Shown in pieces: positions 9,114-23,879 of a stretch of 64,000 bases of DNA. The number at the start of each line of letters is the position of its first letter. The stretch's first letter is position 1. A program made the position numbers and the translations under genes. The stretch is taken from the NCBI RefSeq assembly GCF_000981585.1, contig NZ_LN831776.1:5315187-5379186 (forward strand), given 5' to 3'. This DNA comes from Paenibacillus riograndensis SBR5 (GTDB lineage Bacteria; Bacillota; Bacilli; Paenibacillales; Paenibacillaceae). The notes under the pieces were generated by a model, which saw only the letters and a program-made list of their open reading frames with translations, ran no database searches and had not been told where the DNA came from.

Positions 9114-9641
9114 CTATATTTGATTTTGTCTAATCATATATTCAAGAGTATCTTTTACTTGCATCTCTTCTTCATCTGATAGCGTACATACACTTACTAA
9201 ACAAACATTCGAACAGCTATCCAGTCCAAAGCATACTCTACCTGAAATAACTTTCTTAACAATTGTATTTTTGGATAGTACCAGATTAACTTCAGTTTTG
9301 CTGAGCCAAATTTCAAATGCACCGTTTTCATCCAATCTTCCGTTTTCTGGCCAATTTGACACTTTAAATATTGGGGTACCTTCTTGAACTATATCAGGCC
9401 AATTAATACCTGTAGAATCGCTAATAATTTTATCTGAGTGTACAACTGTTACAGTACGAATTAAGCCTGATTCAGAAGAAATACCAATCTCAATTAGGGA
9501 CTTTTTAAAATCACCAGTTCTCCAGTAAATAGTTGGGTCGAGTATTTCATTCCATTTTCCCCACCTAATCTTTATTGGAATGTATGGGTCAATTTCTAAT
9601 AATTCTTCTACAATGTTTGCTAGTTTTCTTACGTTAAGCAT
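9114..9641 (-). CDS. Probable immunity protein of the orphan Rhs toxin A
   Basis: 175 residues, soluble, with Trp-rich beta segments (IRWGKWNEI, TIYWRTGDF) and a C-terminal VCFGLDSCSNVCLVSV strand pair. No named family is recognised. It starts at ATG 9641 with AGGTAGG upstream, 69 bases after the stop of the orphan Rhs core-plus-toxin segment ending at 9711. Position and size fit the immunity slot of that toxin. It appears fully intact although the toxin cassette upstream has lost its own start. Confidence 0.6.
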   Translation of the reverse strand: MLNVRKLANIVEELLEIDPYIPIKIRWGKWNEILDPTIYWRTGDFKKSLIEIGISSESGLIRTVTVVHSDKIISDSTGINWPDIVQEGTPIFKVSNWPENGRLDENGAFEIWLSKTEVNLVLSKNTIVKKVISGRVCFGLDSCSNVCLVSVCTLSDEEEMQVKDTLEYMIRQNQI

Positions 9642-9710: not shown

Positions 9711-11283
9711 TTATTTTCCCCATCCATTGAACTGAGCATGTATTAGTGCTGGCAACTGCCCCTGCTCTCTCGGTGGAGAAAATTTAAACTCCCACTTGCC
9801 CACATTCATCAATTCTCCATACTTAATACCATTTTGTGTTGCCTGTTGTAATGAACCTTGAAAATCTGTCAGCAATTGCTGAGAGTATAACTTCGGGTCT
9901 ATTCCAGGAGTTTTCATAACTTTTGCAACGTCCTCATACATATGCTCTGTTGCATTCCCATGAACCCATACTTTTTGATTTCCGACACTAATCTCAAAAG
10001 ATTTCGGTATTTGTGTGCCTTCGTATAATGGCTGCGTAGCTTTCATTGAATCCCATACTGTACCAGTTTTACCCGTCCCCTTAGTAACTACCGCCTCACT
10101 ATCCGTCACCGTAGGACTTTTTATCTTAACGGTACTTACATGAGTTGACCCCTCCATTGCCATAGATGCAATATACGTTGCCAGATTTGCATCGAAAAAT
10201 GCTGAAACTAGCTCTTCTCTTGCTGCGTTTGCGTTACTCGCGTTGTTTTTGCCAGAACTGTTTCCTGTTAATAACTTAAAGTAGTAACTGTACTGACTCT
10301 TTTCCATAAAGTCTTCAAAGCCGTACCGTTCCCATATTTTATTATAATATGCATTATACAGGTCGCTTCCTTTATTCAGTTTATGCGCTATTGCATCATT
10401 CAGTAAGAGTCTTAGTTCGTTTACATCATAAGGCTCCCATGGCTTGTTCCCACTTGGATCCGTATACCGCAGCGGATTGTTCTTAACATACGCATACAAA
10501 TTCAAACTCAGCGGATCGTTCAGCTGGCCTTCATACGTATCCTCGCTGATAAACCGTCCAATGCTGGAGTCAAAATCCCGCGCCTGTGCATGGGAGTAGC
10601 CGCTGTAGTAATCATAGCCCAGGCTCGTGTAGCCGAACAAGTTGTCCGGGCCGGACCAGTTCAGGTCGAATTTCTCCGGAGCTTCGGCCACGCCGAATTC
10701 GTCGTAGCGGTATCGCGCGGACATGCTGCCGTCCTGGCCTTCCAGCCCGATGACACTGCCCTGCGCATCACTGAGATAAAAGAGTGTCTTCGGCGTGCCC
10801 GCCGCTGCGCTAGCACCGCTGGCCCCGGCCGCCGGTTCCCAATCGTTGCTCTTGTCTCCGCTGACCAGATAGCTCATGCTGATCCGCTCTTCACCAGCTC
10901 CGTAGACATAGGACTGCTTCCAGTTCTGTCCTGCAGCTCCAGTAGCCATCAATGGCTGCGGAATACTCATAGTGATATCATTGGTAAAATAAAGCTCGAG
11001 CTGCCGTTTCTTAAACTGCGGCTCCCAACCGTCACGGTTACCCGCAGGGTTGCCGGGCAGGTAAGCATCCTGAACCGCACCGTCACCGACGGTGGTCCGC
11101 ATGCTGACCCGGTTGCCGTCACCGTCATACTGGTATGTGGTGATGTCGCCGTACGTATTGGTGTTTTTGATCAGGCGGTTCGATGCATCCCAGCGGTTGC
11201 TCTCCAGCACCTGCGGACCTGCGGCCAGTGCAGCAGCCTGAAGCAGCACATCCAAGTTCAGGACATTGTCAGCTCCATAGACA
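9711..11283 (-). pseudogene. Orphan rhs 3' cassette: Rhs core plus toxin A, lacking a start
   Basis: An open frame of about 514 codons from 11255 carries the last YD repeats, the RHS-associated core (GRFISEDTYEG, DPLSLNLYAYVKNNPL, YTDPSG) and an intact C-terminal toxin domain (KGTGKTGTVWDSM, IPKSFEISVGNQKVWVHG, NATEHMYEDV). Stops and a frameshift lie just upstream near 11283-11300, so it cannot be expressed alone with a signal peptide. It nearly matches the main rhs over 10071-11240. This fits the orphan rhs-CT organisation known from enterobacteria: a displaced tip kept as a recombination donor. The toxin activity is not identified. Confidence 0.8.
10071..11240 (-). repeat. ~1.17 kb near-identical repeat shared with the main rhs gene (13189-14358)
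   Basis: The two blocks match base for base except for scattered substitutions and a few short indel or linker differences. They diverge sharply at TTTTACCCGTCCCC on the toxin side. This is the homology needed to swap toxin tips by recombination. Confidence 0.95.
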
Positions 11284-12473: not shown

Positions 12474-12818
12474 TTAAGATACTATGAATTCCTCTATTGG
12501 TAATATATTCCCGTTATCATCATCAATATAGATGCCCCGTGGAAAATTGTCTTGGGATAATATTTGTTTCATCAATTTTCCATTCGTATACGTCATCATA
12601 ATGAAATGAGGATTTGGAAAAGGAATTCGCTTTATATCATCTTCTTCATAATCATTAATGATATCTTCCACACTCTCATAAAACACATGATCGTTACCAT
12701 AATCTACAACAAATCTATTCGTATTAAGACTGGTGATTGTATTCTCACCATCATGTTGCAGATCACGAATTAGTTTTAGATTAAAATGTTCATTGCCTAT
12801 TAGAATTATCCATTGCAC
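12474..12818 (-). CDS. Probable immunity protein for the main Rhs nuclease tip (module B)
   Basis: 114 residues, strongly acidic, with DYGNDHVFYESV, DYEEDDI, NPHFIMMTYT and GIYIDDDNG. I associate this pattern with immunity-type proteins encoded after CdiA- and Rhs-type nuclease tips in Bacillales; this is from memory. It starts at GTG 12818 with GGAAGGGAG upstream, 20 bases after the stop of the nuclease reading frame. High acidity suits a mimic that caps a basic nuclease active site. The gene is intact even though the toxin is out of frame with the body of the Rhs protein. Confidence 0.7.
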   Translation of the reverse strand: MQWIILIGNEHFNLKLIRDLQHDGENTITSLNTNRFVVDYGNDHVFYESVEDIINDYEEDDIKRIPFPNPHFIMMTYTNGKLMKQILSQDNFPRGIYIDDDNGNILPIEEFIVS

Positions 12819-12838: not shown

Positions 12839-13192
12839 TTATCTACCAACATAATTAATTAATTCCTCTTGATTTGTAAACACACGGAATCCTTCTTTTT
12901 GAAGCCCTTTTACAACAGCGGAATTTGGACTCTGATCAGGTAAATAAACAACAACTTCTTTACTCGTACTTGTGGCAGTATTAATTGCTTGCCGCGTCGC
13001 ACCTTTTCCGCCACCTTGTTTAACTTGTATTATCGCATTATCAAGTTCAATATCATAATCAGTTAATGGAGTTCCATCCTGCCTATAAACTTTTTTATTA
13101 ACATCGACAACTTTTCCTGGGTATCTTGCTTCAATTGCATTTGCAGTTTCGCCTACATACTTGTCGGTTGAAGTAAAAGTCCTAACTTTTAC
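12839..13192 (-). pseudogene. Out-of-frame C-terminal nuclease toxin of the main Rhs protein (restriction-endonuclease-like)
   Basis: About 117 codons, open to a TAA at 12839-12841, lie +1 relative to the rhs frame. The translation has YPGKVVDVNKKVY, GTPLTDYDIELDNAIIQVKQ and GKGATRQAIN, then VVYLPDQSPNSAVVKGLQ. The D-x-E/D-x16-QVK pattern with GKG matches PD-(D/E)XK nucleases of the CdiA C-terminal type, which usually cut tRNA or DNA in the recipient. The rhs frame ends with a TAG at 13182-13184, just past a run of four A residues; removing one A would join the two frames. Confidence 0.8.
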
Positions 13193-16100
13193 CCGTCCCC
13201 TTAGTAACTACCGCCTCACTATCCGTCACCGTAGGACTTTTTATCTTAACGGTACTTACATGAGTTGACCCCTCCATTGCCATAGATGCAATATACGTTG
13301 CCAGATTTGCATCGAAAAATGCTGAAACTAGCTCTTCTCTTGCTGCGTTTGCGTTACTCGCGTTGTTTTTGCCAGAACTGTTTCCTGTTAATAACTTAAA
13401 GTAGTAACTGTACTGACTCTTTTCCATAAAGTCTTCAAAGCCGTACCGTTCCCATATTTTATTATAATATGCATTATACAGGTCGCTTCCTTTATTCAGT
13501 TTATGCGCTATTGCATCATTCAGTAAGAGTCTTAGTTCGTTTACATCATAAGGCTCCCATGGCTTGTTCCCACTTGGATCCGTATACCGCAGCGGATTGT
13601 TCTTAACATACGCATACAAATTCAAACTCAGCGGATCGATCAGCTGGCCTTCATACGTATCCTCACTGATAAACCGCCCAATGCTGGAGTCAAAATCCCG
13701 CGCCTGTGCATGGGAGTAGCCGCTGTAGTAATCATAGCCCAGGCTGGTATAGCCGAACAAGTTGTCCGGGCCGGACCAGTTCAGGTCGAATTTCTCCGGA
13801 GCTTCGGCCACGCCGAATTCGTCGTAGCGGTATCGCGCGGACATGCTGCCGTCCTGGCCTTCCAGCCCGATGACGCTGCCCTGCGCATCACTCAGATAAA
13901 AGAGTGTCTTCGGCGCACCCGCCGCCGTGCCAGCAGCGCTGGCTCCGGTCGCCGGTTCCCAATCGTTGCTCTTATCTCCGCTGACCAGATAGCTCATGCT
14001 GATCCGCTCTTCACCGGCTCCGTAGACATAGGACTGCTTCCAGTTCTGTCCTGCAGCTCCAGTAGCCATCAGAGGCTGCGGAATACTCATAGTGATATCA
14101 TTGGTAAAATAAAGCTCGAGCTGCCGTTTCTTATACTGCGGCTCCCAACCGTCACGGGTACCCGCAGGGTTTCCTGGCAGGTAGGCATCCTGAACCGCAC
14201 CGTCACCGAGGGTGGTCCGCATGCTGACCCGGTTGCCGTCACCGTCATACTGGTACGTGGTGATGTCGCCGTACGTATTGGTGTTTTTGATCAGGCGGTT
14301 CGATGCATCCCAGCGGTTGCTCTCCAGCACCTGCGGGCCTGCGGCCTGCGCAGCTTTCAAGAGCGCTTCGGGAGTTAGAGCCTTATCGCCGTAGACATCC
14401 CCTGTTACTCCTGCTTTAACATCCGCATCCGGCAGACCGGATAATGAAGCTCCTTCAACATCGGTTGGTATCGTTCCGGCAGGGCTTGAGGCTGGATCTG
14501 GAATCGATGACAACGGATCTAAAAGCTCAACCAACGGATCTGTAGCCGCGGTTGTGGCTGCATCATTTGCGTCCGCATTTGTAGCAACGGCTGCACCTGC
14601 ACTTGTACCTCCACCTGCGCTTGCACTTGGGTCTGCCTTGACCTTTGCATCCCCGCCCGCTTCCAGTCCGCTTGTCCCAGTATTCGAGTAGACACTGTCC
14701 GGCACTGTGGTCTTCTGCGCCCTCGTCTTCGCCGTGAACAGGCCCAGAGCCGCTTCGCTGTCGATACCGCTCACTTCCAGCAGATTGCCGCGCTTGTCGT
14801 AGGTGTAGTCCTTGTAGTCGCTGCCTTTTTCAAAATGGGTCAGCTTGTTCGCCGCATCGTAGGTGTATAGTTCCTTGATGGTGGTTCCGGCTCCGGTGGT
14901 TTCTTTCCCCAGCCGGTTGCCCACGGTGTCATAGGAGTAGACGACCCTGGAGCCGTTCTGCTTCTGCACTTGAACCAGCTGGTTCAGCGCATCGTAGGCA
15001 TAATCCGCAATGTCCGCCGGACGCGGCGTTCCAGCAGGATTGTCCTCATCGCTTCCGCCTTCTTGGCGTTCACTGCGGATTTTATTGCCTGCCGGATCGT
15101 ACACATAGGTCAGCTGCTCCAACAGTGCGCCGCCTGGGGCCGTATGCTTCATCTCCAGCAGTTGTCCCGCCCCGTCATAGCTGTAGGTGCTCTGACCTTT
15201 GTTCGGCAGCAGCTTCTCCTTCAGACGGCCGGCTGCATCATACAGGTAACTGGTGATCCCGTTCTGTGCATCCGTTACTTGCTTGATGCGGTCAAGCTTG
15301 TCATAGTCATAGCTGACCACGGTATTATCCGGATAAATGATCCGGCTGCGCTGTCCGGTTGCAGTCCACTCATAACGCACGTTGTTGCCCCGCGGATCTA
15401 TCACCGAGGTTGGCCGGTTGAGTGCGTCATAGGTGTACCGGGTGTCCCCGGTGCTGTCAGTCATCAGGGAGCGGCGTCCCGCGAGATCATATTTATATTT
15501 TACCGTGAGATCGTTGCCGTACTGAATCTGTTCCACTTGATTGCCCTTATTATAGGCATAGACGGTTGTATTGCTGTCCGGTTCTGTGACCTTCTGCAGA
15601 TTGCCGTTCTCATCATAGGCAAGGCTGGTTATCTCCTGCAGCGGATTCACCGATTCAATGACCCGGTTCAGTGTATCGTAGCGGTAGGATGTTACAGCTC
15701 CGAGGGCATTGGTTTTGTCCAGCAGGTTGCCGGAGGCGTCGTAGGAGTATTTAGTGGTACTGCCTTCCGCATTCTTTACTTCTGTTAATCTACCCAGCGG
15801 ATCATACGTAAAAGCCGTCTCGTGATGATTCGCATTCACGATCTTCTCTACATTGCCCTGCGCGTCGTAAGCGTAAATGGTTTCGTACCCCAGTGCATTG
15901 CGCACCCGTGTATTCCGTCCCAAAGCATCGTATTCGTAAGTAGTCTTCTGTCCTGCCGCATCCAGGAATTCGGTCATTAGTCCGCGCGCATTGCGTGTGA
16001 CTGCAGTTTCCTCTTTCAGCGGATTAATCGTTCCCGCATCCAGACTCCGGCTGTCATATTTGGTCGTCCAGATCGAATGGTTGGGATCAATCACTGCGAC

Positions 16101-19100
16101 CTGGTTGCCGTTCTTGTCATACTGGTATTCAGTTACCGCACCAAGTGCGTCCGTTACCTTCACCAGTTGTCCCAGCGCATTGTAGTCATAGTAGGTGCTG
16201 TTGCCGAGCGCATCAGTCTCTTTGATAGTATTGCCTGCTGCATCATAACGGTAACGCGTCTTGGCTCCAAGCGGATCGGTTACGCTCAGCAGTTCATTGC
16301 GCTTGCTGTACGTGTAGGAGGTGATGTTGCCCTTCGCATCCTTTTGGGTGAGCATATTTCCGTTATCATCGTAGGTATACGTGTTGGACTGGCCTTCGGC
16401 ATCTGTAACTTCCTCCAGCTGTCCGACGCTGTCATAGTTGTAAGCCGTGACTGCTCCCGCTTCGTCCTTCGCTTCTATGACGCGGCCGAGCGCATCATAG
16501 GTCTTGGTGGTGCTGTTTTGAAGCGCGTCCTCTGTGCTGCTCAGACGGTACACCTGATAATTGCTGACCGTCTTACTACCAGCTTCGTTAGTGTGTTCCA
16601 CAGGATTACCGTTCGCGTCGTAGGTAACGCTGCTTGTCTGGTCCAGCGCATTCGTAACCGCAACTGCACGGTCTTTCTGGTCATAGTCGACAGCCTGCAG
16701 CTTGCCTTCCGCATCCGTGATCTTAGTTGTCCGGTGCAGAGTATCGCGTTCAATAATTGTCGTGTATCCGCTCGGGTCTTTGATTTCCTTGGCGAATCCG
16801 TCAGCATCGTTAGTGTAGGCCGTTGTGTGTCCTTCGGCATCCGTAACGGAGACCGGGACCCCGGCACTGTCTCTGGCAATGGTGACCACACCGCCGAGGG
16901 CATCCGTGCTTTTGACAAGATTGCCTGCTGTGTCATATTCATAGGTGGCCCGGTTGCCCAGAGCATCGATCTCTTCAACCGGACGGTTCATTGCATTATA
17001 GCGGGTGAGTGAAGAGTATCCGCTCTCGTCTGTCGTCTGCGTCAGATTCCCGCTCTCGTCATAGGCAAATTTGCCTTTGTTGCCGTTAGCGTCTGTAATT
17101 GTCTTTACGCGGTCGCTGCTGTCATAACTGTATTTGACGACGGCGCCATTGGCCGCTTGCCGCTGAGCAATCTGGAAATGATTATTCCATATATATGAAG
17201 TATCCTGATGAAGCGCATTGGTCCATGTAGTCTTGTTCGCGGTAGTGGCGATTGAAGAGGCTAGTCCGGCAGGGCTCGCCGCTGCAGAAATTCCGGAACT
17301 GGCACTTCTCGCGTTTTCGGAGCTTGCACTGCCGGCTTTCTCCGGACTTGCACTGCTGACTTTCCCAAAACTAGCATTGTTGGTGTTCACGGAACCAGCA
17401 CTGCCGGCACTGCTCTGCGGATAAGTCAGAATCGTTTTGCCTGAGCCAACCCCGGTACGGACAACTGGAGTCTGGTTCGGGGTCATATCTCCCCCAAGCA
17501 CGAACAGCCCGCCCGTCTGCACCTTCAAATTATTATTAACACTGACGTTGTCGCGGACGAACAGGTCACCGCCGGTCACGGTCAGATTCGCCGTCTGGTT
17601 GTTGGACACAATTCCGCCAACGGTCATTTCCTGGGCAATGTTCATCTCTACGCGTGTATTGATCGACAAGTCCCCGGCAATAAGAATCCGCTGGGCATCA
17701 ATGGTCAGCCCGCCGCTGTTGTAGGTCAGGCTACCTGTTTGCAGCGTATCCCCCACTTTTACGGAAGAATCATTATTGAGATGGATGGTCCCCCCGGACC
17801 ACAGATTGCCGTATAAGCCCTGAACCTTTTGCACATCGAGCGCAAGCTTGGTGTTGGCGTTAAGTCCCTGCTTCAGAATCAGCGTGCCGTATACACGCAC
17901 GGTGATATCCTTGTTCGTATTCATCCCGTCCACGATCAGGACGACAGGCTTGCCCGGTGACCCGAACGTTACGCTCTCTTCAACATTCAAATGGCCCGAA
18001 CTCACAACAGCCGGTGATGCGCTGCTGGCCGCTATCGCACTTTGAATGTCAGCAATCCCGCCCGGAGCGGCAACCGCTGAGGCACTAAAAGCATTCCGTT
18101 TGCTCTCGATCGTTCCAATGCTGCCTGCCAAATAGTCAGCTATGAGCGGCTTCAGCCCTTCAACCTTCCGGTATGCAGGTGCATGGGCCAGATTATTCAT
18201 CGTCCCGGACAAAATCACCTCATTAGATTCCGGTATATCCCGTCCGTTCGCAGGATCAATTCCCGTCCCGCCGCCTTCAGGCTCTTCTCCCCGGACCACT
18301 GGGGCCACACGCCCCTCATAGGCGGAGGAACTCGTATTGCCATAGAAATCGGTGAAACTGGTCACGCGCTGATGGTCATCATAGGCAACACTCATCACCG
18401 CAGTTCCTTTGGCGTCGGTTACGCTCAGTACGTGATGGTTGTCATCATAGGTAAGCTTGGTTGTGGCCCCATCCACATCAGTAATCGAGGTCATGTCTCC
18501 GCTTGCCGGATCATAATGAAATGACATCTGTCGGCCGGTTAGATCACTTACAGCAATCAGTTTTCCTGCCCCGTCATAGCTTAAGCTTAGAGAAGCCCCG
18601 GCTGTACTGACTTCTTCCAGCTTCTTACCCTGATAAGCAAAAGCGATCTGATTCCCGTTTAAATCCGTGACCGATTGCAGCAGCCCTTCACCATTGAACC
18701 GGTAAAGATCGCCTTGCGGCGATGCAAGGGTATATTCCCCTGAAGAAGGGGCACTTAGCGTCCAGTCGGTACCTCGCGGTGTCAGATACTGGCCTCCCGC
18801 CAAAGGCACGTATTCAAAAAGCGAACCGTCCGGGCTCATGACTTCCACCTTGCCGCCGTTCAGCGGGTTCAGCTTCCATTCATAGCTGTGATGCCACCCC
18901 AGTCCATTAACCCCCTTGTAAGGGTCACGGCTTAAATAGCTCAGTCCGAATTGCAGCGGCATCAAGGCCTGCAGACTAATCGAATCGCTGGAGTAGACAA
19001 AATCCCCCCGGGCCGGATCAACCGGCGCCTGCCCCGACGGGTTCACGATCCGCAGCCGGTCCTGGATGGCCGCTTCCGTAAATTGCGTCAGATCCCCGCT

Positions 19101-20063
19101 GGAAATAGCACGGGCAGTTTGAGGATCTGTCAGCAGAATAGAGGTCAACCCGCTGATTGTTCCCGACGAGGCCGCAGACTGGTTCAGTACAGCGATGTCC
19201 TTGGCTTTTTCTTTCATTGCCTGAACAGAATCCAGCTTATAATAATAGGCAGCCAAGGCTTCCAAGCTCAGCGTAAAAGCGGGCATAGGCGCACGCAGCA
19301 CCGCAAGCGGCTCCGAATACCCGGAGAACTTACCGTCCTTCTTCGCTCTCGCCGTAATATGCGCCGTTACGCCCGGTGTGATCCCGAGCTGCTGACTCCA
19401 TTGTCCTGCGCTGTTGACTGCAACATTGGGGTACAGCTTGTCTTCTCCGCTGGAGGGATAGTAGAGCTCCACTTCCAGCAGCGTTCCGGGTTCAGCAGTC
19501 CCTGATACTACAGATTGTCCTGAGGCCGCAGGTCTGATCTGCAAGGCTGCCGGTGGCTGCACCTCGTCACCGCCAAGGATTTCGAAGCTGGCGATTTGGC
19601 CGTAATACACACCAGAGCCGTTATATTCAGCAGGAGAGATGCAGATGTTATAACGCCCTTCGTCCAGCGGCACGCCTCCGATCTTGCCATCCCAGACATA
19701 TTTATGAACGATATATTGCCCGTCCTTCTTCGTCGGATACACGCCGCTCGTAATCAGATCCCCAAGGAGCGGAGCAGAACCGTCTTTTTGCGGAGTACAC
19801 AGGTTGATGTTAGTCTCATGCTGGTCCTGGCCGTCATCCGCTGCGTTGAAGCTGAACGAAATTTCCACACTTTTACCGGGTCCCGGACTCAGCTCACTCG
19901 GTTCAATCCGCATATTGGTAGCCGCATAGGCAGACGATGTGAGCTTGGCAATTCCCGGAAGAACCGGGATGTAAGATATGACCAGCAGCAGCGCAAGCAT
20001 GAGGTTCACACGCGCCTTCAAGCTGCCGCTGCGCCATTTCCTTTTTAATACTCGGAATTTCAT
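13182..20063 (-). CDS. Giant secreted Rhs/YD-repeat protein with internal beta-helix insert
   Basis: 2293 residues. A long Sec signal peptide (cleavage near SAYA, residues 44-47) is followed by a FlgD-like Ig domain (~50-160). A DUF6531-type entry (GDFVYSSDSI, ~350) and a first YD-repeat set (~440-580) come next. Then there is a Gly/Asn/Val-rich beta-helix-like insert (~610-880), a Ser/Ala/Gly linker, a long YD-repeat shell (~950-1720), a variable linker, and the RHS core ending NPLRYTDPSG (~2160). A shared pretoxin region runs to the stop. YD shells encapsulate C-terminal toxins. ATG 20063 has AGGAGA upstream. It follows the SLH gene by 25 bases, so the SLH protein may tether it. The toxin frame is broken. 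Confidence 0.93.
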   Translation of the reverse strand: MKFRVLKRKWRSGSLKARVNLMLALLLVISYIPVLPGIAKLTSSAYAATNMRIEPSELSPGPGKSVEISFSFNAADDGQDQHETNINLCTPQKDGSAPLLGDLITSGVYPTKKDGQYIVHKYVWDGKIGGVPLDEGRYNICISPAEYNGSGVYYGQIASFEILGGDEVQPPAALQIRPAASGQSVVSGTAEPGTLLEVELYYPSSGEDKLYPNVAVNSAGQWSQQLGITPGVTAHITARAKKDGKFSGYSEPLAVLRAPMPAFTLSLEALAAYYYKLDSVQAMKEKAKDIAVLNQSAASSGTISGLTSILLTDPQTARAISSGDLTQFTEAAIQDRLRIVNPSGQAPVDPARGDFVYSSDSISLQALMPLQFGLSYLSRDPYKGVNGLGWHHSYEWKLNPLNGGKVEVMSPDGSLFEYVPLAGGQYLTPRGTDWTLSAPSSGEYTLASPQGDLYRFNGEGLLQSVTDLNGNQIAFAYQGKKLEEVSTAGASLSLSYDGAGKLIAVSDLTGRQMSFHYDPASGDMTSITDVDGATTKLTYDDNHHVLSVTDAKGTAVMSVAYDDHQRVTSFTDFYGNTSSSAYEGRVAPVVRGEEPEGGGTGIDPANGRDIPESNEVILSGTMNNLAHAPAYRKVEGLKPLIADYLAGSIGTIESKRNAFSASAVAAPGGIADIQSAIAASSASPAVVSSGHLNVEESVTFGSPGKPVVLIVDGMNTNKDITVRVYGTLILKQGLNANTKLALDVQKVQGLYGNLWSGGTIHLNNDSSVKVGDTLQTGSLTYNSGGLTIDAQRILIAGDLSINTRVEMNIAQEMTVGGIVSNNQTANLTVTGGDLFVRDNVSVNNNLKVQTGGLFVLGGDMTPNQTPVVRTGVGSGKTILTYPQSSAGSAGSVNTNNASFGKVSSASPEKAGSASSENARSASSGISAAASPAGLASSIATTANKTTWTNALHQDTSYIWNNHFQIAQRQAANGAVVKYSYDSSDRVKTITDANGNKGKFAYDESGNLTQTTDESGYSSLTRYNAMNRPVEEIDALGNRATYEYDTAGNLVKSTDALGGVVTIARDSAGVPVSVTDAEGHTTAYTNDADGFAKEIKDPSGYTTIIERDTLHRTTKITDAEGKLQAVDYDQKDRAVAVTNALDQTSSVTYDANGNPVEHTNEAGSKTVSNYQVYRLSSTEDALQNSTTKTYDALGRVIEAKDEAGAVTAYNYDSVGQLEEVTDAEGQSNTYTYDDNGNMLTQKDAKGNITSYTYSKRNELLSVTDPLGAKTRYRYDAAGNTIKETDALGNSTYYDYNALGQLVKVTDALGAVTEYQYDKNGNQVAVIDPNHSIWTTKYDSRSLDAGTINPLKEETAVTRNARGLMTEFLDAAGQKTTYEYDALGRNTRVRNALGYETIYAYDAQGNVEKIVNANHHETAFTYDPLGRLTEVKNAEGSTTKYSYDASGNLLDKTNALGAVTSYRYDTLNRVIESVNPLQEITSLAYDENGNLQKVTEPDSNTTVYAYNKGNQVEQIQYGNDLTVKYKYDLAGRRSLMTDSTGDTRYTYDALNRPTSVIDPRGNNVRYEWTATGQRSRIIYPDNTVVSYDYDKLDRIKQVTDAQNGITSYLYDAAGRLKEKLLPNKGQSTYSYDGAGQLLEMKHTAPGGALLEQLTYVYDPAGNKIRSERQEGGSDEDNPAGTPRPADIADYAYDALNQLVQVQKQNGSRVVYSYDTVGNRLGKETTGAGTTIKELYTYDAANKLTHFEKGSDYKDYTYDKRGNLLEVSGIDSEAALGLFTAKTRAQKTTVPDSVYSNTGTSGLEAGGDAKVKADPSASAGGGTSAGAAVATNADANDAATTAATDPLVELLDPLSSIPDPASSPAGTIPTDVEGASLSGLPDADVKAGVTGDVYGDKALTPEALLKAAQAAGPQVLESNRWDASNRLIKNTNTYGDITTYQYDGDGNRVSMRTTLGDGAVQDAYLPGNPAGTRDGWEPQYKKRQLELYFTNDITMSIPQPLMATGAAGQNWKQSYVYGAGEERISMSYLVSGDKSNDWEPATGASAAGTAAGAPKTLFYLSDAQGSVIGLEGQDGSMSARYRYDEFGVAEAPEKFDLNWSGPDNLFGYTSLGYDYYSGYSHAQARDFDSSIGRFISEDTYEGQLIDPLSLNLYAYVKNNPLRYTDPSGNKPWEPYDVNELRLLLNDAIAHKLNKGSDLYNAYYNKIWERYGFEDFMEKSQYSYYFKLLTGNSSGKNNASNANAAREELVSAFFDANLATYIASMAMEGSTHVSTVKIKSPTVTDSEAVVTKGTGKS

Positions 20064-20088: not shown

Positions 20089-22188
20089 TTAGAGTAATTT
20101 CAGCTCAGCCAGCAGCTTGTACATAATGACTGCCGCTTCGGCTCTTGTGGAAGAATCCTTGGGCTTCAAAAACTGTCCGCTGCCCTGCACCAGCTTCTTG
20201 TCAACCGCCGCAGCTACGGATTCCCGTGCCCATTGGCTAATGGTGCCGTTGTCCTTAAATCCGGAGAGTACTGCCTGAAGCTTGACTGAGTCCGCAGCAG
20301 ATGCCGGGCTGTGGGCAGTAGTGCTGTCAATCGCCCGCATCAGCATCACCATCATCTGTTCACGGGTCAGCGGAGCATTGCCGTGGAAAAGCCCTGCGTC
20401 TCCGGTTACAATTCCTGCCGCCGCTGCTGCTTCCACATACGGGTAAGACCAGTGCGCAGCGGAAACATCACGGAAGGTTGGCTTATCCGTATGTACCGGT
20501 TGGAGTCCAAGAGCTGCTGTCAGCAGCTTGGTGAATTCAGCCCGGGTCAGTACAGCTTTTGGCGCAAATACGGTTCCGTTCATTCCGTTCACGATGCCTC
20601 TTGCTGCCAGGACCTCCACATCTTGCTGTGCCCAGTGGCCTGAAATATCCGTGAATTGTGCCTCGCGCAGCATGACCGCGTACAGCCCAGAGGCTGATAT
20701 CTTAGCCTGAACAAAACCGTCCTCCGCCGCAGTCACCCCGCCAATATAGCTCCAGATGCCTTTGTCCGGATTGTAGCTGTAGATTCCAAGCTTCTCCCGC
20801 TTGGACGTCCAAGGCTCCTCCTGCGGATACCGGACCGCCAACTTGGCCGGGATCAGGAATGGAGCGCTCGCTTGCACCTGCCAGGCGGAACCAGCCTTGA
20901 GCAGCTTTTTGCCGCTTGCATCCAGCAGTTCCTTCGTTTCCAGTTCAGCCTGGGCCAGGCTTACGCTGGTATTGTCCGGGAAGGTTCCAGCAGATATTTC
21001 CAGCCGTGCCCAACCATTCACTGCAGACAAGATGCCGCCTGAACTTCCAATAATCCGGCTGTCTTTGGCTCCGGTAATCACAGGGATCTTAGTCCCCGGA
21101 GCCGGACCCGGGTTAGCGTCTGGGCCTGGATTTGGGGTTGCACCTGGCGGTGGAGTCGTTTCCGGCCCAGGAGTCGGGTTGGGGTTTTCTTTTAAATCCA
21201 CTGATTCTATGTAATCGTCCTTCTTGCTGTACAGCAGCTTGTTCCCGCTAATTCCGATCAGCTTCACCCCGGCATCTATCGGCAGCGGTTTTACTGCATA
21301 TGTAGTGAGGTCTACCTGCTTCAGAGTGACAGCATCGTCAACCTCCTCCTGGAACACAGCTTGTTCTTCACCTATGGACATAAAGGCATATTCAGTTCCC
21401 CCGGCTTTCATCCCGGTGAGATCCACTGGCTGTGCCGTGAGGTCTTTGATGTTCAGTAGTACATATTTGCTTCCTGTGGCACTGTTTTTCTGCTTGTACA
21501 GCACGTGGCTGCCGTTAAAAACAAACCAGTCCACCGCATTCGCACCACCCAGGCTAACCAGTGGGCGGGTGACGCCACTGCTCACATCCAGCAGGCTAAG
21601 GCCCCCGTCACGGGCATTCTTGTAGACGACATTTCCGCCGGCCAGCACCGGGAAACGGCCTTCGCCCAGATCCGCTTCAACCCCGGTTGCCAGATCATGA
21701 TAGATCATGCTGCCGTAATTTTTGCGTTCATACCAGACCACACCTGCGCCGTCAGTTGTCGGATTGCCGTATTGGCCGGCCTGCTTGTTGAGCTTCATCT
21801 TCTTGCCTGTCTCCAGATCGGCAGTATAGATATCCCAGTGAAGTGAAGATCCCGGCTCACTTCCCTTGTCCGCCCACACCGCAACTGCTCCATGCACATA
21901 AGGCGCATCCTTGGCGGATGGACCGGATGTAAGCACCGTATTTGCGCCACTGCGTTGATTCAGCGCGTGCACCTGCTTAACTCCGTCTGCATCCGGTTCC
22001 AGCCATAACAGCCGATCACCCGATACGCTATAGTCCGTTCTGCCCGGGTTGGCCGCCGTCACAGCCGCAGCCGAAACCGATGCCTGCCCTATGCCCAGAC
22101 CACTGCCGGCAAGCCCCCCAAGCAAAATCACCGCCGCGCAAACAGCTGTAACCGTCTGCGTAAACTTCCTTTTCCTTCCGAACCTCAT
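20089..22188 (-). CDS. SLH-domain surface protein with N-terminal propeller
   Basis: 699 residues. A signal peptide (~1-41) leads into a TolB/WD-like propeller (~45-330; repeated LLWLEPD, AVWADKG and VVWYERK strands). A Pro/Gly/Asn linker (~333-366) and a beta-sandwich domain follow. Three S-layer homology repeats close the protein (FTDISGHWAQQDVEVLAARG at ~513, FRDVSAAHWSYPYV at ~571, FKDNGTISQWARESV at ~645), each ending in a TRAE or TRE-type motif. SLH domains bind pyruvylated wall polymer, so it is cell-wall attached. It is the first gene of the transcript that also carries rhs and is preceded by a cyclic di-GMP riboswitch. It probably presents or stabilises the Rhs protein at the surface. 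Confidence 0.92.
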   Translation of the reverse strand: MRFGRKRKFTQTVTAVCAAVILLGGLAGSGLGIGQASVSAAAVTAANPGRTDYSVSGDRLLWLEPDADGVKQVHALNQRSGANTVLTSGPSAKDAPYVHGAVAVWADKGSEPGSSLHWDIYTADLETGKKMKLNKQAGQYGNPTTDGAGVVWYERKNYGSMIYHDLATGVEADLGEGRFPVLAGGNVVYKNARDGGLSLLDVSSGVTRPLVSLGGANAVDWFVFNGSHVLYKQKNSATGSKYVLLNIKDLTAQPVDLTGMKAGGTEYAFMSIGEEQAVFQEEVDDAVTLKQVDLTTYAVKPLPIDAGVKLIGISGNKLLYSKKDDYIESVDLKENPNPTPGPETTPPPGATPNPGPDANPGPAPGTKIPVITGAKDSRIIGSSGGILSAVNGWARLEISAGTFPDNTSVSLAQAELETKELLDASGKKLLKAGSAWQVQASAPFLIPAKLAVRYPQEEPWTSKREKLGIYSYNPDKGIWSYIGGVTAAEDGFVQAKISASGLYAVMLREAQFTDISGHWAQQDVEVLAARGIVNGMNGTVFAPKAVLTRAEFTKLLTAALGLQPVHTDKPTFRDVSAAHWSYPYVEAAAAAGIVTGDAGLFHGNAPLTREQMMVMLMRAIDSTTAHSPASAADSVKLQAVLSGFKDNGTISQWARESVAAAVDKKLVQGSGQFLKPKDSSTRAEAAVIMYKLLAELKLL

Positions 22189-22242
22189 TCACTTCTCTCC
22201 CCCAGTGCTATTTGTAGGCACGTCAAAAAACCAAGTGCCTTG

Positions 22243-22336
22243 AGCGGCCCGGCTGCCCTGACATCCCTCCCGGATGAAGTAGGCCCGTGGCTTTGCGTCT
22301 CCGACTTTCGTACGGATTTGCCCTTGTTCCAAACTC
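22243..22336 (-). promoter_or_regulatory. Cyclic di-GMP-I (GEMM) riboswitch
   Basis: Read on the minus strand, the aptamer shows the conserved pieces in order: GGGCAAATCCG, a CGAAAG loop, GGAGACGCAAAGCC, ACGGGCCTA, and a downstream GGGAGGGATG and CAGGGCAGCCGGG arm. GACGCAAAGCC-ACGGGCCTA is the signature of class I c-di-GMP aptamers. It lies 55 bases upstream of the SLH gene. A short CAAG-GCA-CTTG hairpin followed by six T residues (~22228-22240) could be the terminator switch; an alternative AGGCAC/GTGCCT pairing spans it. Whether c-di-GMP turns the operon on or off cannot be read. Confidence 0.9.
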
Positions 22337-22900
22337 GGTTTTCTGTCCTTGTATGCTTATGTAAATGAGACTTTAGATGTAGAGGACACTCTTATTATCG
22401 GAATTTATTCCTATCGACTTAAGATGTTCTATTTTTTCCTTTTTCAGGGATGCGGACAGGAAATCCGTTAATGGAGCGGAGCACGCATGGAAACTAGTAG
22501 AACAACCCGGAAGGCTAGATTGACGGATTCCTCGCCATCCATCTTGTAGATAATCAGATGGGTGCTTTACACTCGAACCTAAAGGGAACCACGACCTTAC
22601 GGACTCCAGCGCCGTTATTTCAACAATCCGGGCTTTTTATTCAATCTAACGGACTCAGGAGACGCTAAGCTGGCATTTCCCGGAGCATAATGGTGGAATT
22701 GCATGAAATAGGGTCATCCGGGTCCGTAAGTGCCCGGCAAAAACCGATTTCAAGCAATTAACGGCATCTGGGTCCATTAGGGGAAGTCCCCCCTTTTTTT
22801 CAGGGGAGGCTGGGAGAACTCGATCCTCTGCTGTATGAGCCGTTTGGCTTTGTTCTCTCCTCTCTGTCCGATTCATTGCTGCGCCCCACCAAACCACACA
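22337..22900. repeat. Noncoding region with Paenibacillus-type dispersed repeats
   Basis: No gene is supported. Several related pieces recur: CTAACGGACTCAGGAGACGC, TTGACGGATTCC, TTACGGACTCCAG, TTAACGGCATCTGGGTCC. A matching element (GCGGACTCAGGAGAC) is present near 38157. The SLH-rhs promoter must lie at the low-coordinate end, but no convincing -35/-10 pair stands out. Confidence 0.55.
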
Positions 22901-22901
22901 C

Positions 22902-22926
22902 AAAAAGCCGCCTCTCCCGAGGCGGC
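22902..22926 (-). terminator. Terminator of the spoIIA operon
   Basis: On the minus strand GCCGCCTC and GAGGCGGC form a perfect 8-base stem, followed by TTTTTG. It lies about 200 bases past the sigF stop. The stretch between (22940-23110) is a low-complexity run of CTTACTTCCCGCTCG-like units. Confidence 0.8.
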
Positions 22927-23123
22927 CTCCTACAACCGTTTATTTCACCCGTCACATTCACTGCTCATACTTACTTGCAAAAGCTGGTAACGTACTGTTT
23001 TCCTTACTTGCCTCCGCTGCCTGCTGCCTTACTTCCTTGCTCGCCTTACTTCCCGCTCGCCTTACTTCCCGCTCGTCTTGCTTCCCCCTCGTCTAACTCC
23101 CCGCTTGTACCCTGCCAGCCCAT

Positions 23124-23879
23124 CTACTGCGCAATCTGCTCGCGGATGCTCGCGAGGATTTTCTTCTCCAGCCTCGACACCTGGACCTGCGAGATGCCGA
23201 GGCGGCTGGCGACTTCGGATTGGGTCTGGTCGCGGTAGTAGCGCAGGTAGACGATCAGGCGCTCGCGCTCGGTCAAGGCCCCGATGGCCTCATTGAGTGC
23301 GAGCTTGTCGAACCAGCGCTCCTGCGTCTCGTCGGCAATCTGGTCGATCAGCGTGATCGGATCGCCGTCGTTCTCGAAGACGGTCTCGTGGATCGAAGTC
23401 GGCGGCTTGTTGGCCTCCTGGGCGAACACGATTTCTTCGGGTGTGACCCCCAGCGCCTCCGCGACTTCGCCGATGGTCGGCAGCCGGTCCAGCGTTTTGG
23501 ACATTTCGTCCTTCATTTTGCGGACCCTGTTGGCCATCTCCTTGAGAGAACGGCTGACCTTGAGGGTGCCGTCGTCCCGGAGGAAACGCTGGATCTCGCC
23601 GATAATCATCGGCACGGCATAGGTGGAGAATTTGACCTCATAGCTGAGGTCGAATTTATCTACGGACTTCAACAGTCCGATACAGCCGATCTGGAACAAA
23701 TCGTCAGGCTCATACCCGCGGTTCATAAACCGCTGCACCACCGACCAGACGAGGCGGATATTGCAGTTGACCAGCGTGTCGCGGGCCAGATTATCTCCGG
23801 CTTGACTGAGTGCGATCAGACGTTTGACCTCCGCATCGTCCAAATAGGTCGGCGGAGCTTTTTTTGACTCTGCATCCAT
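23124..23879 (-). CDS. sigF: Forespore sigma factor F
   Basis: 251 residues. Sigma-70 regions are plain: region 2 (DDLFQIGCIGLLKSVDKFDL, near residue 60, then STYAVPMIIGEIQRFLRDDG), region 3 (RSLKEMANRVRKM) and region 4 with its HTH (YYRDQTQSEVASRLGISQVQ). Sigma F directs early forespore transcription and is held inactive by SpoIIAB until SpoIIAA is dephosphorylated. It is the last gene of the spoIIA operon, 11 bases after spoIIAB. ATG 23879 is preceded by TTGGAG. Length and gene order match the Bacillus homologue. Confidence 0.97.
   Translation of the reverse strand: MDAESKKAPPTYLDDAEVKRLIALSQAGDNLARDTLVNCNIRLVWSVVQRFMNRGYEPDDLFQIGCIGLLKSVDKFDLSYEVKFSTYAVPMIIGEIQRFLRDDGTLKVSRSLKEMANRVRKMKDEMSKTLDRLPTIGEVAEALGVTPEEIVFAQEANKPPTSIHETVFENDGDPITLIDQIADETQERWFDKLALNEAIGALTERERLIVYLRYYRDQTQSEVASRLGISQVQVSRLEKKILASIREQIAQ

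Follow-up and report, generated by a model that had tools for sequence, protein, structure and literature searches.

The window analysed here, a stretch of 64,000 nt from Paenibacillus riograndensis SBR5 (NZ_LN831776.1, positions 5,315,187 to 5,379,186), carries on its minus strand a c-di-GMP class I aptamer (22239-22331) followed by two genes in an operon layout. The 3' end of the aptamer lies 50 nt ahead of the start codon (22188) of a gene encoding a 699-aa secreted-looking protein (20089-22188, minus strand) with three C-terminal SLH domains (PF00395, three stretches, E 1.3e-32); a Shine-Dalgarno-like GGGGGAGAG occurs at 22195-22203 on the same strand. The N-terminal part of this protein gave only weak beta-propeller matches and is possibly a beta-propeller. 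After its stop codon (20089), 25 nt separate the SLH gene from the start (20063) of a gene encoding a 2293-aa Rhs protein (13182-20063, minus strand). The initial annotation had described an SLH protein with a giant Rhs protein 25 bases later, and both are there as described; it had also placed the aptamer 55 bases upstream of the SLH gene, and the position holds, with a distance of 50 nt. Between the aptamer and the gene at 23879-23124, which from its protein sequence we take to be sigF of the spoIIA operon, there is a strong terminator-like site of 16 pairs (22899-22934, minus strand), and read-through from this upstream gene is unlikely because that site intervenes.

The 2293-aa protein consists of a delivery part and an RHS shell (PF05593, 18 stretches, E 6.5e-140) with a Rhs-associated core domain (Rhs_assc_core) and a tip that is short after the core; among proteins of solved structure, its shell matches T6SS Rhs effectors and bacterial teneurin-like ones. 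An orphan Rhs core with a different C-terminal tip lies at 9711-11255 on the minus strand. The DNA of the orphan and main genes is 97.5% identical over 1168 nt; this match stops before the tips, at 13187 and 10067, and the main ORF ends one residue past the end of the match (13187). The last 300 aa of the main Rhs protein matched no Pfam family and contain no recognisable toxin domain, and the last 300 aa of the orphan likewise had no Pfam match. From this comparison, the toxin tip of the main copy seems to have been lost or cut, and killing by the window copy is not established because its fused tip looks cut off. Candidate immunity genes, named as such by position, are a 114-aa ORF (12474-12818, minus strand) and a 175-aa ORF after the orphan tip (9114-9641, minus strand). 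The ORF at 12818-12474 and the orphan tip at 11255-9711 with its 175-aa ORF have the layout of toxin/immunity cassettes, which agrees with the toxin and immunity genes claimed earlier as far as arrangement goes; the small ORFs (searched against Pfam and NCBIfam) and the main tip are without a family match, and PADLOC returned no match for five window proteins. Between 5000 and 13300, the window holds an array of displaced toxin tips, in which the Rhs core is duplicated and intercassette DNA is repeated (12410-12194 and 9059-8841, 84%; 6345-6081 and 10794-10528, 94%).

cmscan identified a single Rfam match at gathering score in the window: RF03167 (c-di-GMP-I-GGC) at 22331-22239 on the minus strand, with 59.9 bits against a cut-off of 59 (E 1.3e-11), a margin of 0.9 bit. 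The parent model RF01051 (GEMM-I) matched the same place (22331-22239) with 61.1 bits against a cut-off of 35. The initial annotation had called a class I aptamer on the minus strand from signature motifs, which are present in the window sequence, and had suggested an Infernal search; the covariance-model matches are significant, and the aptamer sits about 5 nt away from the position first given for it (22243-22336). The alignment columns that we take to be G20, A47, and C92 were assigned by Vc2 numbering, and all three, read by eye off the alignments, are ordinary bases in the window aptamer. P2 is closed by a GNRA tetraloop (GAAA). Where the RF03167 consensus reads GACGCGAAgC, the aligned window sequence is GACGCAAAGC; the hallmark G at position 47 is absent and the window has A, and we dropped the c-di-GMP-I-GGC variant label. 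Because G20, A47, and C92 are ordinary and the RF03167 consensus G47 is absent, the window element is, judged from its sequence, an ordinary c-di-GMP-I aptamer. RF03167 is also the Rfam name kept in 18 of the 19 genus loci described below, and the aligned core there is also GCAAAG. Specificity for 3',3'-cGAMP (A20), prompted by AACAAAGGC in relatives, was ruled out; under the same numbering, the A presumably stands one position before the kept G20. The available part of one source names G20, A47, and C92 as ligand-contact bases (PMC11218506). The host genome has nine c-di-GMP-I sites and 26 GGDEF matches, and for these two reasons the host very likely makes the c-di-GMP signal.

We searched 100 genomes of the host genus with the N-terminal 500 aa of the SLH protein and found a homologue in 19 (E 1e-10 or better); at all 19 loci, a same-strand c-di-GMP-I aptamer lies upstream. 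The same leader ahead of SLH-Rhs operons in other Paenibacillus, for which the initial annotation had proposed to look, is therefore found. Fifteen of the 19 loci are full pairs with an Rhs ORF of 2037-2381 aa; in three (L074, L075, and L077), the first gene is truncated and Rhs is absent, and one (L078) is a decayed locus with an Rhs fragment. In the reverse test, the N-terminal 340 aa of the Rhs protein matched 10 of the 100 genus genomes at E 1e-20 or better, a threshold that does not reach the diverged branch, and all 10 loci are aptamer-led. For a random start in the host genome, the chance of a same-strand aptamer within 300 nt is ~1.7e-4.

A profile search of 394 family genomes gave matches in 42 genomes from 8 of 19 genera. 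Outside the host genus, 22 genomes matched, of which 20 were examined and 18 were strong (E 1e-60 or better); G048, G321, G323, and a second place in G018 were left out of the locus analysis, and G275 and G302, with weak SLH-profile matches only, were excluded as members of the SLH-Rhs operon. The aptamer is present in 11 of the 18 strong loci, and the other seven, all from one genus, have none even at E 0.5. An Rhs ORF comes next in 17 of the 18; in the remaining one, the contig ends inside the SLH gene. The window Rhs protein finds a relative (E 1e-10) in these 17 and in 14 other genus pairs, and RHS repeats occur in all eight full-length relative Rhs proteins scanned. Overall, within Paenibacillaceae, the aptamer lies upstream in 30 of 37 strong SLH-gene loci and in 26 of 32 strong loci with an adjacent Rhs gene, and the aptamer-bearing loci span six genera. 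In L132 (Thermobacillus xylanilyticus, as L139), two c-di-GMP-I aptamers (444-541 and 1243-1346) lie ~0.8 kb apart upstream of the SLH gene. A motif search, the only search made there, showed an SLH-Rhs pair without the aptamer core motif in Gorillibacterium timonense (L140).

Gene neighbourhoods of the unit differ between loci, and the leader therefore moves with its genes. In a first-gene tree of 33 sequences, the seven aptamer-less loci form one group (support 100/98), which corresponds to one change, and aptamer-bearing loci fall on both sides of the midpoint root; several branches are long, and finer placing is unsure. The simplest history would be that the aptamer was lost once, unless the true root lies on the aptamer-less branch. 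A plasmid search with the SLH protein returned 57 records, none covering 80%, and among the matches listed, the best 20 of the 57 match from residue 404 onward only; the leader gave one partial Alicyclobacillus match among plasmids. The second Rhs locus of the host genome (3.60 Mb) has no c-di-GMP-I site nearby and, by eye, no SLH-partner-like ORF ahead of it on its strand.

The tips vary between loci. We examined 16 of them (the main and orphan tips of the window and 14 from relatives); seven match a family at or above the cut-off and nine match none. The families are phage lysozyme (two), PlyCA_N, Tox-WTIP, lipase-like, HINT, and DUF7587, the last of which is borderline in L072 (29.9 bits for a 300-aa piece and 26.9 for the full protein, cut-off 27). 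Many loci have small ORFs after the Rhs gene. On the strength of these protein comparisons, we read the tip variation as the polymorphic-toxin pattern.

Ahead of the leader, a promoter-like element, TAAG-N15-TCCGATAA, lies at 22395-22421 on the minus strand. The sigma-D consensus is TAAA-N15-GCCGATAT, and the host flagellin leader has, by eye, TAAC-N15-GTCGATAT. The pattern TAAK-N15-TCCGATAW precedes the leader in all 10 loci of the window's clade, with both boxes 0.97 identical against 0.82-0.86 in the surrounding bases. Genome-wide, the pattern has 24 matches against 11 in a backward control, a mild enrichment, and most of the 24 lie inside ORFs; one match starts 67 nt ahead of a flagellar-rod-like ORF. 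For a sigma-D-like promoter before the window leader, the pattern is therefore no more than a hint. A sigma-A consensus scan of 22100-23200 found 0 sites (shuffles, 0.5). In the diverged branch and relatives, TATAAT with TTGTCA-like boxes appears in places (by eye). Sigma-D for all loci was rejected: the aptamer-less group has TCCGATAW upstream of the SLH gene in seven of seven loci (L124, L125, L127, L129, L130, L131, and L133) but no matching -35 by eye. Several of these aptamer-less leaders have a hairpin before the ribosome site with arms like AAGACATAG/CTATGTCTT (by eye), possibly another leader regulator.

Between promoter and aptamer, complementary hairpin arms, UGUCCU (22388-22383) and AGGACA (22349-22344), could form a 5' leader hairpin (22344-22388, minus strand); such arms are present by eye in ten clade leaders, and folding predicts them for some. 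Around the aptamer, the predicted terminator helix, P0, has a 5' arm, CCGAGU (22333-22338, minus strand), that pairs in the folded leader with a 3' arm, ACUUGG (22231-22236, minus strand), and directly after P0 comes a U6 tract (22225-22230, minus strand), by its position and conservation a putative intrinsic terminator tail. In the 19 genus leaders, the 5' arm YCRRGU immediately flanks the aptamer, and its partner RCUUGK is followed without a gap by a U-rich tract, which all 19 have at this place; by the tract rule, 29 of 30 aptamer-bearing leaders have it, L166 being the exception. An alignment of 18 distinct genus leaders gives 108 cells for the six P0 pairs, and the bases pair in 106 of them; when the partners are shifted by one to three columns as a control, no more than 49% of cells pair (whole structure). 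Covariation gave no two-sided change in P0/P1 (0 of 11 pairs, with one-sided changes only), and a conserved-structure score was not set apart from shuffles. In the window, 0.57 of shuffled 5' arms made an equally strong two-arm duplex; this fraction was at most 0.05 in 10 of 28 scored loci, none of them in the window's clade.

Taken as a whole, the locus is in our view best explained as a riboswitch that is OFF with c-di-GMP and controls transcription of the SLH-Rhs operon, an explanation that we hold with confidence slightly above even. Transcription would start upstream of the aptamer, in the window's clade probably at the sigma-D-like promoter. Bound c-di-GMP would fix P1, whereupon the adjoining P0 (CCGAGU/ACUUGG) would zip up and, ending at the U6 tract, would make RNA polymerase stop; at low c-di-GMP, the helix would close too late and the operon would be read. 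Motile, spreading cells, in which c-di-GMP is low, would then make the weapon, and settled ones would shut it off. We infer ligand binding and termination from this architecture, and OFF is predicted because the stem that encloses the aptamer also reaches the U tract, which makes it a terminator that the ligand should stabilise. The initial annotation had proposed that c-di-GMP ties contact-dependent killing to the sessile state; its idea of an Rhs system under a c-di-GMP aptamer survives in the linkage conserved at 30 of 37 loci, and its direction is probably the wrong way round, as the platform predicts termination with ligand.

Folding models make the OFF polarity probable, unevenly over loci and least firmly in the clade of the window itself. 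When the sampled sequence includes the U tract, 26 of 29 loci show pairing between the stem ahead of the tract and the 5' flank at a level of at least 0.7 (exceptions: L132, 0.51; L164, 0.34; and L134, 0.03). When the tract is trimmed to two and the leader is lengthened, nested pairing exceeds 0.5 in 24 of 30 loci and falls below it in L044, L045, L056, L122, L128, and L134. P1 is weak in the window's clade; in the window itself, it forms in 0.13 of samples. Because folding gives the nested stem already in the absence of ligand, the switch would have to be kinetic. In part of the diverged branch, a modelled upstream hairpin of the AAGCAC/GUGCUU type, which takes in the 5' strand of P1, could serve as an antiterminator. 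We count against the OFF model that seven strong loci keep the operon without the aptamer and that enrichment of the promoter pattern across the genome is no more than mild.

The same leaders could be read the other way, as an ON switch in which a ligand-free local stem (3' half of P3 plus CUUGG) terminates and the ligand holds P3/P1, so that sessile cells would make the toxin. In each of the 18 scored genus leaders, a local stem (-4.5 to -8.2 kcal/mol) does precede the U tract, and with the longer leader the local partner is likelier than the nested one in L044, L045, L122, L128, and L134 (not L056). Class I switches of both polarities are described in the available part of PMC6366702, where all seven functional ones of Clostridioides difficile are OFF and Bc2 of Bacillus thuringiensis is an ON switch before a collagen adhesion protein gene. 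However, the local stem borrows the 3' half of P3, and by eye it must break P3 to form; moreover, its 3' arm is the one that pairs with the conserved 5' arm at the U tract, itself making a terminator, and the nested stem dominates in the 26 of 29 loci noted above. A leader with ON-type layout elsewhere in the host genome (L007, 683861-683948), a c-di-GMP-I aptamer before a secreted-looking protein, looks different: its classical local terminator is complete (-18.6 kcal/mol) and overlaps P1 by eye, and sampling gave 0.00 nested and 1.00 local. The second comparison leader from this genome (L005) gave 0.04 and 0.96; it belongs to tandem c-di-GMP-I aptamers (L004/L005, 862520-862757) before a 269-aa secreted-looking protein, and the P1 flank of the downstream aptamer could, by eye, base-pair with the region of the ribosome site. 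On balance, we consider an ON switch unlikely.

We regard as improbable a reading in which the Rhs shell and its SLH partner form a surface adhesin or matrix module, with minor tips and an ordinary surface-protein switch. The cut-short tip of the window copy would fit it, as would the frequent control of motility and adherence genes by c-di-GMP switches (in the available part of PMC6366702) and the use of the same shell for adhesion by animal teneurins (likewise for PMC13018210); against it, relatives carry lysozyme, PlyCA-type, Tox-WTIP, lipase-like, and HINT tips, and the small ORFs after Rhs in many loci are as in polymorphic toxins. That the aptamer has lost its switching function or responds to a different ligand, and is kept for transcript stability, is very improbable: Bc1 of B. 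thuringiensis does bind c-di-GMP and hardly changes its targets (PMC11218506, available part), and Rfam assigns the window site to the variant RF03167, but G20, A47, and C92 are ordinary, the RF03167 consensus G47 is absent, and loci with first-gene proteins that are just 30-36% identical share the aptamer core.

The RNA class is known, and its use on a polymorphic toxin operon appears to be new. Among the papers listed by full-text searches of the open literature, a scope with subscription papers mostly outside, none connects by title or abstract start a riboswitch with a polymorphic toxin, Rhs or other, and this agrees with the initial annotation, which knew of no described example. The terms "riboswitch" and "polymorphic toxin" occur side by side in one listed paper, on tRNA queuosine (PMC10570037). 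A P. riograndensis transcriptome study names, in the part available, 11 expressed cis-elements, none for c-di-GMP, and predicts 98 motifs (PMC5670726). As a wider proposal, which we hold tentatively and with some doubt, a Paenibacillaceae c-di-GMP OFF switch that travels with the SLH-Rhs operon across several genera would restrict an exchangeable-tip toxin to motile cells with low c-di-GMP, with a motility sigma factor added in one branch. If this is true, contact killing would be a tool of spreading fronts rather than of the settled biofilm. Whether contact-dependent killing in Gram-positive soil bacteria belongs to moving or settled cells becomes a testable question, and the conserved leader offers a comparative series that includes one group with the weapon but without the aptamer.

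Compared with known systems, the window element resembles RF01051 in core bases, P2/P3 layout, and leader position; it differs in its target, an SLH-Rhs polymorphic toxin operon, and in its predicted terminator stem, which is P1 extended outward around the aptamer. Relative to RF03167, it reaches the gathering score, yet shares with RF01051 an A at position 47, where the RF03167 consensus has G. WapA/Rhs polymorphic toxins of Firmicutes have a secreted RHS shell, an Rhs core boundary, a variable tip, and orphan tips, all of which recur here; the SLH-anchored partner gene and the riboswitch are extra. In the part of the polymorphic-toxin compendium that was searched, the terms "SLH", "S-layer", and "riboswitch" are absent (PMC3482391). 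The predicted polarity is the same as that of Cd1 of C. difficile, a class I OFF switch before flgB; there, c-di-GMP represses toxin production via SigD (PMC6366702, available part), an indirect and host-directed link, whereas the window riboswitch leads the toxin operon itself and the toxin, presumably delivered to neighbouring cells, looks interbacterial. Bc2 of B. thuringiensis, like the window element, is a class I aptamer before a surface protein and acts on read-through (PMC6366702, available part); Bc2 is ON, whereas the window switch is predicted to be OFF.
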